Assembly: GCA_947467185.1 (NCBI GenBank)
Contig: CANIHR010000017.1
Coordinates: forward strand, 1 to 33,760
From: Bryobacterales bacterium
GTDB taxonomy: Bacteria; Acidobacteriota; Terriglobia; Bryobacterales; Bryobacteraceae
Length of the DNA: 33,760 nucleotides
Direction: 5' to 3'
Within the stretch, counting starts at the first letter, position 1. Each line of letters begins with the position of its first letter. Both the position numbers and the translations under genes were made by a program. The notes under the pieces are model-generated. The model was given only the letters and a program-made list of their open reading frames with translations. It did not search any database and was not told the DNA's origin. Shown in pieces: positions 11,124 through 16,095 of the stretch.

Positions 11124-11987
11124 TCAGGCTCCGAAGCTTCGCAAGTACTGAATGGCCGCTCCGTAGTACTCACGGGCGGTGTCTGTGTCCTGCACGCAGA
11201 GCCGACTGAACGCACGAGCGCAATTTCGGTGTGGGAATCCGGGTAAGTCTATTTGGGCAAGGGTTTGTAGTGAATCGTCACGCACAAGTGGATCTCTGCT
11301 CTTTCTGTTCCGGTGGGCGACGTAAATTGCCTTCAGCAAGAAGGCTCTCTCCCGCAGCAACTCTTCCCTGGTGTCCAAGGCGAAAAAATCAATGATGACC
11401 CTCGCCCGCCGAGCCTTGCGTCCTCTCCTCTTTACTGCAACTGGGACGAACCCCTCGAACGAAAGTAAATCCTCGGGGTCGTCATCCACCTCTGCAATTG
11501 GATATATCAACAGTGGCAGTTCTCCCGCCAGCACCTCAGGCGTGTCCGCATCCACGGCACGGGCAGCGGCCTCGATCGGAAAGTAATTCGCTTTAAACGA
11601 CGAGTTGCACTTCTTACATGCTGCGGCGTAGTTTAGTAGATTGTACGGAAGCAAGAAATAACCCACATCAGATGCTGGTCCGGTGGGAAAAGAATATTGA
11701 AAGGTAGCGCCTGCTGGCGGCCAGACTTTAACAGAACTTTTTGGCCGGAAGTGCTCGATGTCGTGCTCAATACGGCTCTGGGGATCTGAGCCGAACTGGC
11801 GCTCACAGTAGGCGCATTTGCCATGCTGTAGTTGCATGTATACGGGTTTAACTTTACTCCACGAACCAGCCTTTTCCGTGTATTTCCCCGCCGCTCTGAA
11901 GGCTGCCGTCCTCTCCGCCGCATCGGCGAGCCATCGGGCACCAATCTTGTCGGTTAATTCTGCCACGGTTGTGTTGTAGCGGATCAT
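11124..11987 (-). CDS. HNH endonuclease, PtuB-like (Septu-type defence candidate)
   Basis: CAYCERQF...RIEHDIEHFRPKS...NLLNYAAACKKCNSS: HNH/zinc-binding CxxC...CxxC core; ATGA overlap with the upstream ATPase gene. Confidence 0.8.
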   Translation of the reverse strand: MIRYNTTVAELTDKIGARWLADAAERTAAFRAAGKYTEKAGSWSKVKPVYMQLQHGKCAYCERQFGSDPQSRIEHDIEHFRPKSSVKVWPPAGATFQYSFPTGPASDVGYFLLPYNLLNYAAACKKCNSSFKANYFPIEAAARAVDADTPEVLAGELPLLIYPIAEVDDDPEDLLSFEGFVPVAVKRRGRKARRARVIIDFFALDTREELLRERAFLLKAIYVAHRNRKSRDPLVRDDSLQTLAQIDLPGFPHRNCARAFSRLCVQDTDTAREYYGAAIQYLRSFGA

Positions 11988-13300
11988 TTTTTCTTTAGTC
12001 CGGCTTTCTTTAGACCGGAGCTTTTTGGGCCGCGAGTTGCCTTCGCCAGGGTGGGCTTGCTTTCTACCGGATCGTCAACCCCCGCCAGTTTTCGCATGAT
12101 ACTCAGGGCTATATCGGATCGTCCCGGTGAAAGTTGCCTCGACAAATGACTCAATTCGTCCATGAATTGCGGTGCCCTCGTCGTTTTCAGGCCGAAGTAC
12201 GGGCTTAGCAGCACCTGTTGTGCGTCGAGACCGTAAATTCGCTCACTGTACTGGTCTACCGTTGAAGCTCCGGCGGGTGCTGGTTCCATTACAAAGATAT
12301 TCCTGCTCTCCAGCGAACCTGCGACAATCGGGCTGTGCGTAGAGAAAATGAACTGTAGGTTGGGCAACGCTTCCGCCAGAGACGCTACAACGGTACGCTG
12401 CCACTCCGGGTGAAGGTGCAGGTCAATCTCGTCAACCAGGACCACACCGCGATTTTCAACCAGTTTTGCTCCGGCCGGTGAACCGAAGCAGACGTGATAC
12501 AGCAGGTCTGCAACCCAGCCAATATAAGCTCTGTATCCGTCGGATAACGCACTGAAGGGTGAGGCAACCCCATTGATGTTGAAGAGGTATTCTCCAAGTC
12601 CACCGCTCTCCCTCTCTCCAGTGAAGCTGGACCCCTCAGGCAGAAGACGGTCAAGCAAATGGACGACTTGCGTGTAGCGTCCCTTGTTGGTTGATTCGTA
12701 ATCCGGAAGCCAGGTATCAAGGGGAGTTAGTGCAATGTGGCTTTCGAACAACCCCGCCACCCTCTGATACTTCAAGGTTCGGCTACGTCGCTGATCGTTG
12801 GGGCGGTAGTTGGAGGAATCCTCCACCCGTCGCGTTGCTCCGTAACCAACCACCAAGAATGCGGGAGAGCGGTCATCGTACATCTTCTTGTGCGACGGCC
12901 CCTTGTGAACAACGTCTTCTACAAACTCGTGATCACCTTCTTTGATAATGCGAACGGAAAAGTGAGCGTGATGCTCCGACGTCTTCGCCTCAATTGTTTC
13001 ATCGAGGTCCTGATCGTGCAATAGCATGACAGCATCGATCTGGGCACTTTTTGCTTTTCGGCGCACCATGTTGCGGGGGACATAACCGGCGCTTCTTGCC
13101 ATAATCGGAGCTAGTGCCGAAAGGGCGATCGCACGCAGCAACGTTGTCTTCCCTGCACCATTATTGCCCAAAAGGAGGTTTACGTTCGGTGCGTTAAGGC
13201 CGTTACTCTTTCCGGGTTTGTCCTCACCTGGACAGCGAAGGGAAACTGCTGCCGACTCAAAACACCGGAGGTCCCGAATCTTGAGGCTTTCTATGTACAT
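11984..13300 (-). CDS. AAA/SMC-RecF-like ATPase, PtuA-like (Septu-type defence candidate)
   Basis: Walker A GNNGAGKTTLLRAI, 'LSDGYRAYIGWVADLLYH', Walker B GVVLVDEIDLHLHPEWQ, 'NLQFIFSTHSPIVAGSL' switch; coupled to an HNH gene. Confidence 0.8.
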   Translation of the reverse strand: MYIESLKIRDLRCFESAAVSLRCPGEDKPGKSNGLNAPNVNLLLGNNGAGKTTLLRAIALSALAPIMARSAGYVPRNMVRRKAKSAQIDAVMLLHDQDLDETIEAKTSEHHAHFSVRIIKEGDHEFVEDVVHKGPSHKKMYDDRSPAFLVVGYGATRRVEDSSNYRPNDQRRSRTLKYQRVAGLFESHIALTPLDTWLPDYESTNKGRYTQVVHLLDRLLPEGSSFTGERESGGLGEYLFNINGVASPFSALSDGYRAYIGWVADLLYHVCFGSPAGAKLVENRGVVLVDEIDLHLHPEWQRTVVASLAEALPNLQFIFSTHSPIVAGSLESRNIFVMEPAPAGASTVDQYSERIYGLDAQQVLLSPYFGLKTTRAPQFMDELSHLSRQLSPGRSDIALSIMRKLAGVDDPVESKPTLAKATRGPKSSGLKKAGLKKK

Positions 13301-13315
13301 ATGGCGTCTCTACTA

Positions 13316-13933
13316 TCATATGCTCAGGATGTCAGTTCGTATCGAAGGTATAAGAGTCTGGCGAGCAACGGCCGATAGGCTGGCGGCGGCCACGAGGACC
13401 CATATCCATGACACTCCGAAATAGACCACTTCTCGCTGATTGATCTGTACATGGAGTGCCTGCGGCACTGTTCGAAACTCCCCGCTCACCGGACTCATGG
13501 CACGAACTCTCCAAATCGTCACGGATTCCGAAGGTATCCGCAATGCCGGCGTTTCCACTGCCACCCCAAATGGTGCGATCAGGTCGACGCCCTCCGCAGT
13601 TGAAGCCACCTTCGCGATCGTCAGGTCACCTGCATCGAGCGGTGCCCGGCCCAGCGTGTTTTCCAACGGTACGTACCCCGCGACCAGGATGGCGCACGAG
13701 ATCACCATCGGGATTGCAACCGCCCGAAGCCCGGCGACGTTCGCACGCACCAAATCCCGCTGCGCCCGGAAAATCAGGCGCGGCTCATCAATGAACAGCC
13801 GGAATTCCAGGACATGGGCGATACTCCGATTCACCGCAAGCCTGAGCGCCGCCGTGTCCGTGAAACGTCGAAAGAGCCAACCGGCCACGGCCCCGTAAAT
13901 CATCCCGCACAAAACCAGCAGGGCCAATTTCAT
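13316..13933 (-). CDS. Predicted membrane protein with extracytoplasmic domain
   Basis: Hydrophobic segments MKLALLVLCGMIYGAVAGWLF, AVAIPMVISCAILVAGYV and WIWVLVAAASLSAVA; ATGA overlap with the upstream gene. Confidence 0.65.
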   Translation of the reverse strand: MKLALLVLCGMIYGAVAGWLFRRFTDTAALRLAVNRSIAHVLEFRLFIDEPRLIFRAQRDLVRANVAGLRAVAIPMVISCAILVAGYVPLENTLGRAPLDAGDLTIAKVASTAEGVDLIAPFGVAVETPALRIPSESVTIWRVRAMSPVSGEFRTVPQALHVQINQREVVYFGVSWIWVLVAAASLSAVARQTLIPSIRTDILSI

Positions 13934-14133
13934 TCGATGTAGCCAAGTCCCCGCAACTGCTTCTCGATTTCCGCTGCATCTGCTGCCGGTGCGTCCGCGT
14001 CACGTCGCGCCAGTTCCTTCTCCACGGTGTGCGCGACAAACTCATCCGCGGAACTGTATCCCGCAGCCTTCGCCGCTGCCACTGCGCGTTCGTGCAGAGC
14101 CGGTTCCAGTCGAATTGTGTGTCTTGAAAACAT
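13930..14133 (-). CDS. Ribbon-helix-helix (CopG/Arc-like) small DNA-binding protein
   Basis: 67 aa: MFSRHTIRLEPALHERAVAAAKAAGYSSADEFVAHTVEKELARR, a beta-strand + two helices RHH layout. Confidence 0.65.
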   Translation of the reverse strand: MFSRHTIRLEPALHERAVAAAKAAGYSSADEFVAHTVEKELARRDADAPAADAAEIEKQLRGLGYIE

Positions 14134-14199
14134 GGGTTGTCTACAGGTACTTCTGCCCGAACTGTAACACGCTTATACCTCTCTGAAAAGTTGGGTACG

Positions 14200-14374
14200 A
14201 CCACTTTTTTCTTTGCGAGGGGAATAGTCAGAGAACGAAAATCGCGCTACTCTCCTGGTTTCTACTCCGGGTTTTGCAGAGGCGAAGTTTGCAGGAGAAT
14301 CCGGACTCCAAATGCAAAACCCCGCCTTGGGGACGGGGTCTGCATAATCCACGGAGTGGAAAGGGGGTGCTTCT
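14200..14374 (+). ncRNA. Conserved structured 5' leader of the dispersed element, copy 2
   Basis: Near-identity to copy 1; hairpin 14312-14345 with conserved stem and changed loop. Confidence 0.5.
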
Positions 14375-14452
14375 ATGGCCCTGCTGATGTTGTTTTTTGG
14401 TCTTCTCAAGAGACTGAAACGGATCGGAATCAAAATTGACTTTACATTTTGA
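14375..14452 (+). CDS. Predicted 25-aa membrane micropeptide of the dispersed element, MALLMLFFGLLKRLKRIGIKIDFTF
   Basis: ATG 14375, TGA 14450-14452; SD-like aaagggggtg about 8 nt upstream; C-terminal IKIDF.F shared with copy 1 with synonymous codon changes. Confidence 0.65.
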   Translation: MALLMLFFGLLKRLKRIGIKIDFTF

Positions 14453-14464
14453 TTCTTAACCGTA

Positions 14465-14496
14465 AGGAGGTCAGCGATTCGCCCCGCTAGCCTCCT
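14465..14496 (+). other. 3' hairpin of dispersed element copy 2
   Basis: AGGAGGTCAGCG-attcgccc-CGCTAGCCTCCT, same stem as copy 1 with one G.U to A-U replacement and one C.A mismatch. Confidence 0.55.
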
Positions 14497-14517
14497 CAAC
14501 ATCAAATTACCACATTT

Positions 14518-16095
14518 TCAATTGATCGGAGGCGTGTCCCGAAGCCCGAACGCGAAAATCGCATGGCCACTCGCAATCGCGATCTGCTGCTTACCATCCG
14601 CCCCCACATAGCTCACCGGATCGGCATTGACCTTCCCGCCCATCGGATACCGCCACAGCAGTTTCCCCGTCGCATCGTCCAGCGCGATCATGTCGCCATC
14701 CGCCATCGCTGTGAACACAAGACCACCCGCCGTTGCCAGCACGCCCGACCACGACGGACCCGTCTCAAACGTCCACTTCGCCGTCCCGGTCATGGGGTCC
14801 ATCGCCTTCACACCACCGGTGGCATCCTCGCCTGGCTTCGATACAAATCGTCCCGCCAGGAACCAGCTGCCAGCCTTGTACGTGTCGTCGCCCGAGTAGA
14901 AAACGCCACCCTCATCGCGTGTCATCACATAGTGCAGTTTCGTGTTCGGGCTGTACGCTGCCGCCTGGTAATTCGTCGCACCCGGCGAATTCGGGTACAC
15001 CGTCGTCCCCTGTTCGGTTGGAGTCGTTCCCGCCTTCAGCGTCGGCCTGCCCTTGTCACTCAGAGTCGGTTCCGCCCACGTCTGCCGCACATACTGCTTG
15101 CCCAGCAAAAACTCGCCAGTCGTCCGGTCCAGCACGTAGTAGAAGCAGTTCCGATTCGCAAACAGCACCAGTTTCCGCGCTTGCCCCTTCCAGTTCGCAT
15201 CCACCAGAATCGGAGTCTGCGTGGAATCCAGGTCCCACATGTCATGCGGCGTGAACTGGAAATGCCACTTCAGCTTGCCCGTATCGGCGTCGAGCGCAAT
15301 GATCGAATCCGAGTACAGGTTGTCCCCCGCCCGCGTCTTCGGGTTCCAGTCCGGCCCCGGATTGCCCGTGCCCCAATACAACGTGTTCAGGCCCGGATCA
15401 TACGCGCCCGTCACCCACGTCGTCGCCGACCCTGTCTTCATGCTCGTTCCGGCCCACGTCTCAGAACCCGGCTCACCTGCCGCCGGCACCGTCCAGAAAC
15501 GCCAGGCCTGCTTGCCCGTCTTCGCGTCATACGCCGCCAGATATCCGCGCACGCCGAACTCACCGCCCGCCGATCCGATAATCACCTTATCCTTCACAAT
15601 CATCGGCGCCACGGTCGAGGAATATCCCTTATGGAAGTCCGCGACCTCCACATCCCAGATCACGTTGCCCGAAGACGCATCCAGCGCCACCAGGTGTGCG
15701 TCCAGCGTCCCGACATAGATTCGGTCGCCTGAGATCGCCACGCCGCGATTCACGCGTCCGCAGCACGTTGGAATATTGTCCGGATACACCCGGCGGTACT
15801 TCCACAAAACTTTTCCCGAGCGGGTCTCCAGCGCAGTCACGTCGCTGGGTGGCTCACTGATGTACATGATGCCGCCGCGAACTACCGGCGACACTTCAAA
15901 CTTGTCTGTCTTGTCGATCTGATACGACCACAGCGGCTGCAGTTTTCCCGCATTCGCCCGGGTCACCTGCGTCAGCGGCGAAAAGCGGAAACCTTCCTGG
16001 TTGCCCTGATAATGCAGCCAGTCGGCACCGGTCTGGGCCCCCGTTTGGGCAAAGATGGCGCCCGTGAAAATTAGTGAAGTCAGTAATGTTTTCAT
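14518..16095 (-). CDS. PQQ-binding quinoprotein (alcohol-dehydrogenase-like) beta-propeller protein
   Basis: WLHYQGNQEGFRFSPLTQVTRANAGKLQPLWSYQ, repeated 'ALDA.TGKLKW', 'IPTCCGRVNRGVAI', 'MIALDDATGKLLWRYPMGGKV'. Confidence 0.9.
   Translation of the reverse strand: MKTLLTSLIFTGAIFAQTGAQTGADWLHYQGNQEGFRFSPLTQVTRANAGKLQPLWSYQIDKTDKFEVSPVVRGGIMYISEPPSDVTALETRSGKVLWKYRRVYPDNIPTCCGRVNRGVAISGDRIYVGTLDAHLVALDASSGNVIWDVEVADFHKGYSSTVAPMIVKDKVIIGSAGGEFGVRGYLAAYDAKTGKQAWRFWTVPAAGEPGSETWAGTSMKTGSATTWVTGAYDPGLNTLYWGTGNPGPDWNPKTRAGDNLYSDSIIALDADTGKLKWHFQFTPHDMWDLDSTQTPILVDANWKGQARKLVLFANRNCFYYVLDRTTGEFLLGKQYVRQTWAEPTLSDKGRPTLKAGTTPTEQGTTVYPNSPGATNYQAAAYSPNTKLHYVMTRDEGGVFYSGDDTYKAGSWFLAGRFVSKPGEDATGGVKAMDPMTGTAKWTFETGPSWSGVLATAGGLVFTAMADGDMIALDDATGKLLWRYPMGGKVNADPVSYVGADGKQQIAIASGHAIFAFGLRDTPPIN

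Follow-up and report, generated by a model that had tools for sequence, protein, structure and literature searches.

What are the two short ORFs, alike in translation and set on opposite strands, that lie within a 33,760-nucleotide stretch of DNA from a Bryobacterales bacterium (NCBI GenBank assembly GCA_947467185.1, contig CANIHR010000017.1; the whole stretch is hereafter the window)? One of them, at 14375-14452 on the forward strand, encodes MALLMLFFGLLKRLKRIGIKIDFTF (25 aa, stop codon TGA); the other, at 297-377 on the reverse strand, encodes MIFSMLIVCLVFLRLRRLKIKIDFRF (26 aa, stop codon TAA). A sequence-only reading had presented them as a conserved micropeptide pair, and its coordinates and translations proved exact when the window sequence was read again. 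It had also held that the ORF diverges more than its flanks, and this is the case: the two ORFs lie within inverted copies of one element (about 14191-14519, forward, and 565-232, reverse), the arms of which are 90-97% complementary, with the ORFs being less alike. What it overlooked is the larger unit around the ORF, an intergenic RNA cassette of about 300-330 bp with promoters of its own and a covarying structure. Its parts stand in a fixed order: behind a sense promoter come a 5'UTR of ~115 nt, a Shine-Dalgarno sequence and the ORF, and these are followed by a 3' hairpin and by an extended -10 element that points back at the ORF. In the two window copies the parts are as follows:

14225-14253, forward: predicted sense promoter of copy 1 (-35-like TAGTCA at 14225-14230, 17-nt spacer, -10-like TACTCT at 14248-14253)
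14255-14374, forward: structured 5'UTR of copy 1, a three-way junction (covariance model score 123 bits; covariation equalled in 0 of 500 shuffles)
14260-14268 with 14353-14361, forward: outer pairing of the copy 1 5'UTR, adjoining the Shine-Dalgarno sequence
14316-14339, reverse: candidate antisense terminator of copy 1, a GC hairpin followed by TTTT
14362-14367, forward: Shine-Dalgarno sequence of copy 1, AGGGGG
14375-14452, forward: micropeptide ORF of copy 1, 25 aa (selection statistics)
14466-14495, forward: 3' hairpin of copy 1, GGAGG...CCTCC, kept across the alignments
14504-14512, reverse: antisense extended -10 of copy 1, TGGTAATTT (TGnTAnnnT present here in 47 of 51 copies)
503-508, reverse: sense -10-like element of copy 2, TACCCT
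378-501, reverse: structured 5'UTR of copy 2 (covariance model score 119.9 bits; fold z-score -4.05)
388-393, reverse: Shine-Dalgarno sequence of copy 2, AGGAGG
297-377, reverse: micropeptide ORF of copy 2, 26 aa (selection statistics)
256-284, reverse: 3' hairpin of copy 2 (sequence and alignment)
239-247, forward: antisense extended -10 of copy 2, TGGTAATTT

Among the genes around these copies, a beta-helix gene (558-1877, reverse) has its stop codon inside the left end of the copy 2 cassette (558-565, gGTAATACC), which suggests that the cassette is a later arrival at this site. Copy 1 is adjoined by a gene for a 67-aa HicB/ribbon-helix-helix-like protein (13930-14133, reverse; slightly below the cut-off of Pfam HicB). 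About 1 kb from copy 1 lies a Septu anti-phage defence pair (11127-13300, reverse), comprising a PtuA-like ATPase (11984-13300, reverse; PADLOC E=7e-156) and a PtuB-like HNH protein (11127-11987, reverse; PADLOC E=2e-94).

The proposal of a conserved hydrophobic and basic micropeptide is borne out by many homologues. Across the family the peptides have 22-30 residues, and they are hydrophobic and basic in subfamilies A and B and not hydrophobic in subfamily C. Those of subfamily A (22-28 residues) display the pattern M-x-L-L-M-L, a short hydrophobic run of ~12 residues, a basic cluster and a tail of alternating charged and hydrophobic residues, such as KIKIDFRF or KLKIEIDL; their ATG is preceded at 7-14 nt by a Shine-Dalgarno sequence. 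Purifying selection, likewise claimed earlier, is evident in this subfamily from a dN/dS of about 0.31 (minimum spanning tree, 45 distinct ORFs) and from a pN/pS that is 0.38 in frame 0 but 0.90 and 2.08 in the two alternative frames, a frame-0 value that none of 300 column shuffles matched, with related copies being counted as independent. An intact family ORF is present in 51 of the 68 aligned copies defined by their 5'UTR, several of the others ending at contig ends. Given these counts, the dN/dS value and the presence of five cassette copies in the window's genome, the likeness of the two window ORFs is not due to chance. Homologues with frameshifts or in-frame stops, which the sequence-only reading had set down in advance as a finding that would speak against it, do occur in a minority, but the remaining copies are clearly constrained. 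The broken copies show frameshifts (the second copy of L078, and L115), premature stops (L048, L052 and L053), loss of the start (L072) and partial deletion of promoter and UTR (L019 and G007:C18); decay of this kind in a minority is as expected for toxin-like genes. Two further loci are distinct: in L075 (G015:C185) an insertion apparently separates the Shine-Dalgarno sequence from the ORF, with the family peptide following the extra sequence, and in L037 (G015:C44) the UTR and the sequence after it are similar and the family peptide was not found.

The ~115 nt before the ATG, which are better conserved than the ORF itself, fold as a three-way junction. Its outer helix is formed by the extreme 5' end (TTCTACTCC) pairing with GGAGTAGAA, which directly adjoins the Shine-Dalgarno sequence. 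In a first alignment of 27 sequences, which was not fitted to the structure, 94.6% of cells can pair and 11 pairs show changes on both sides. The order-wide alignment of 74 sequences was so fitted and its numbers are inflated: two-sided changes in 25 of 28 pairs, 331 cells with such changes versus 93.5 +/- 9.3 in shuffles, and a covariation score of 0.500 versus at most 0.089 for slid structures. The 3' hairpin is also conserved in the alignments. Folding further predicts that the ribosome-binding site is occluded: in most family copies the Shine-Dalgarno sequence is predicted to pair mostly with the start of the ORF, the family median of its unpaired probability being 0.07. For subfamily A the mean is 0.13 versus 0.27 in synonymous recodings (p=1e-5, copies counted as independent), and at the start sites of other genes in the window the mean is 0.42. 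Copy 1 is among the less occluded copies, with 0.20 in the full-length fold and 0.54 in a local fold.

Promoter-like motifs flank this unit on both strands. A sense -10-like TAnnnT stands just upstream of the 5'UTR in most subfamily-A copies (36 of 50; shuffles: mean 6.3, maximum 13). The opposite strand has the extended -10 motif TGnTAnnnT, pointing towards the ORF and mostly located 47-52 nt beyond its stop codon, in 47 of 51 copies (shuffles: mean 2.7, maximum 7), related copies again being counted as independent. In the same windows, TGnTAnnnT is absent from the sense strand. The other subfamilies, which played no part in defining the motif, have TATnnT in 33 of 43 copies (shuffles: 3.0). 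The -35 element of the antisense promoter is weak. As to the candidate antisense terminator, its A-tract is near-invariant in alignment A2, and by score it is at chance level (one site in the region of copy 1 versus 0.7 in shuffles); the scan of one distant copy returned no site. Farther upstream, at ~54-66 bp from where the 5'UTR begins, 18 of 50 subfamily-A copies have the motif GTAATACC (shuffles: 0.26). In some copies it makes up, together with GGAGGTATTTAC, an inverted repeat that covers the -35, and it may be an operator.

A search at the DNA level through 101 related genomes recovered about 50 cassette copies in 12 of them, and an exact core pattern found 25 stretches among 85,488 species (one genome each), all in Bryobacterales or Acidobacteriia/Terriglobia bins. 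Among 258 genomes of the order Bryobacterales, covariance model R2 has matches in 29 and R3 in 34, and the cassette is present in 16 of its 84 sampled genera; matches elsewhere in the class are rare, and a phylum-wide sample gave, besides the window's own genome, a single weak match in the same class. Three weak model matches (L054, L120 and L141) are probably false, and two of them (L054 and L120) have no family-like peptide. In several genomes copies stand in tandem at intervals of ~370-400 bp. The site of copy 2 is likewise occupied in G015 and G007, and in G016 the same two genes adjoin directly, with no cassette between them. An origin in a phage or plasmid was rejected, as pattern and BLAST searches of phages, plasmids and viral contigs came back empty. 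Against the covariance models of Rfam 15 nothing reached the gathering score, and a relaxed E-value gave chance matches alone; nothing credible emerged from Pfam, NCBIfam, PHROGs and PADLOC for 24 peptides, or from Pfam for 16 distant peptides. The type I toxin profiles of Pfam and NCBIfam (Ibs, Ldr, Hok, Fst, TisB and others) gave no meaningful match to set A3, nor did those of Pfam to set A6. No papers came up when full texts in the literature were searched for type I toxin-antitoxin in combination with Acidobacteria.

Distant Bryobacterales copies keep the UTR fold, the Shine-Dalgarno sequence, the 3' hairpin and the antisense -10, and have unrelated peptides. Model R3 ends at the ATG, and the copies it found outside its training set mostly carry such ORFs again. 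At least three unrelated peptide classes occur on the scaffold: TM-KIKIDF, TM-WTRKGRR and a soluble-looking GYRLTIKV-DG-EI-LEP. Class B is exemplified by MILLLVIRLKLIGRLTALIVWTRKGRR, MLTLWLKIVTMFMTVRLKLTIRKGR and VTLRLKIVWLRYTVEIVFRLKR, and class C by MRLQIAIPKGYRLRVRFLKDGTTEVALEPP and VIHLIIPKGYRLTIKVSPDGFVEITLKP. We tentatively raise the possibility, short of an even chance, that the 5'UTR, 3' hairpin and antisense promoter constitute an interchangeable platform for expression and silencing, on which the lineage would swap presumably toxic peptides under a single RNA module. Class C is the main puzzle, because its peptides do not look membrane-active. Two class C cassettes from different families of the class (L118, G083:C6, and L050, G227:C48) have a homologous neighbouring ORF in common.

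We consider it probable that the cassette represents a new family of type I toxin-antitoxin-like loci, found in Bryobacterales (Acidobacteriota). Sequence comparison provides this reading with a selected ORF, a conserved RNA structure, promoter-like motifs on both strands, a standalone intergenic placement and presence or absence between species; from there we infer the transcription of two RNAs, control by base-pairing, toxicity and membrane action. The sense promoter, with a transcript start predicted just upstream of TTTCTACTCC, would give an mRNA of ~250 nt with the 5'UTR as a three-way junction. Because its 5' end pairs beside the Shine-Dalgarno sequence, itself predicted to pair with the first codons, this mRNA would be poorly translated by default. 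The convergent promoter past the 3' hairpin, with a start predicted just past the TGnTAnnnT box, would produce an antisense RNA spanning the ORF and the ribosome-binding site and perhaps ending at the UTR hairpin, which on the minus strand reads as a GC-stem plus TTTT. This RNA would keep the ORF from being translated and hasten decay; a shortage of it would allow a peptide of 22-30 aa, with a hydrophobic N-terminus, a basic cluster and an amphipathic strand-like tail, to be made and to act at the inner membrane. Counting against such a reading are the weak antisense -35, the weak terminator score, the short hydrophobic stretch and subfamily C, the peptides of which (MRLQIAIPKGYRLRVRFLKDGTTEVALEPP for instance) lack the hydrophobicity of membrane-acting type I toxins.

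Conservation of the 5'UTR beyond that of the ORF, and the occurrence of unrelated peptides on the same scaffold, some of them soluble-looking, would also suit a dual-function regulatory RNA, in which the UTR fold is the main actor and a small non-toxic peptide tunes a membrane protein. We regard this as unlikely, though deserving of some weight: the near-universal antisense promoter motif, the tandem copies, the patchiness and the frequent decay fit toxin-antitoxin loci better. The cassette could alternatively be a small selfish or mobile repeat of the MITE/REP type with an incidental ORF, being multicopy, intergenic and variably present between species, and enclosing the stop codon of a neighbouring gene at copy 2. 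Such an origin is improbable in view of the strong codon-level selection. Moreover, neither a common neighbour gene nor a transposase was found at 35 loci, where shared neighbours mostly reflect orthologous sites; three genomes (G000, G007 and G015) retain orthologous copies at one shared site, and the copies are diverged rather than products of recent bursts. A short ORF with a structured RNA is also the usual anatomy of an attenuator, but a leader peptide for a downstream gene is very improbable here, since that gene is on the opposite strand at 19 of 29 loci, as well as at both window copies, and is not conserved between loci.

The type I toxin-antitoxin-like reading can be set beside several known systems. 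As a class, type I toxins come from ORFs of fewer than 60 aa and are usually hydrophobic with basic residues; restraint of the toxin mRNA by its own fold is common among them, though not universal. The analogy to the Ldr/Fst/Ibs type made by the sequence-only reading is supported for the manner of working, given the structured mRNA, a Shine-Dalgarno sequence predicted to be occluded, a convergent promoter motif, and loci that are multicopy, often in tandem and sometimes decayed, but not for membership in those families, to which there is no Pfam or Rfam match. The ibs/Sib and ldr/Rdl loci of E. coli likewise encode a very short hydrophobic peptide in multicopy, often tandem, intergenic loci with a cis antisense RNA across the ORF; here such an RNA is suggested by the conserved promoter motif. 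The cassette is set apart from them by the absence of any sequence match in Pfam or Rfam, by a conserved 5'UTR of 115 nt with a three-way junction and by the charged, amphipathic tail of its peptide. In zorO/orzO and tisB/istR an sRNA, encoded divergently, serves as antitoxin, whereas here the convergent promoter would yield a fully complementary RNA. Common to those two is an inhibitory 5'UTR on the toxin mRNA, with the antitoxin acting on the UTR or the standby site; the toxin mRNA of the cassette would similarly be restrained by its own predicted structure, and ZorO, of 29 aa, is encoded in tandem (PMC11264685). The aapA/IsoA systems of Helicobacter pylori comprise a membrane peptide of ~30 aa with basic C-terminal residues, multiple copies and a cis-encoded antisense RNA; aapA1 resembles the cassette in its peptide of ~30 aa with basic residues (PMC8309996). 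Unlike in aapA/IsoA, to which both peptide and RNA are unrelated in sequence, the UTR fold here is common to several unrelated peptide classes.

A relationship to a described RNA is also conceivable. The Solibacter-1 motif is listed as a candidate RNA of Solibacter usitatus that is neither cis-regulatory nor a riboswitch, and the listing gives no Rfam accession (PMC2864571). This acidobacterium is likely of the same order as the cassette hosts, and Solibacter-1 (Weinberg 2010) could be related to the cassette family. The claim of novelty is limited to that extent. Acidobacteriota are a dominant and little-studied soil phylum, and such loci are easily missed, as ORFs of only 25 codons tend to fall through standard annotation; a covariance model for the cassette accompanies the finding. 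If the reading is true, this phylum gains a predicted family of type I toxin-antitoxin-like loci, and the pairing of one scaffold with different peptide classes makes the turnover of micropeptides under RNA control testable.
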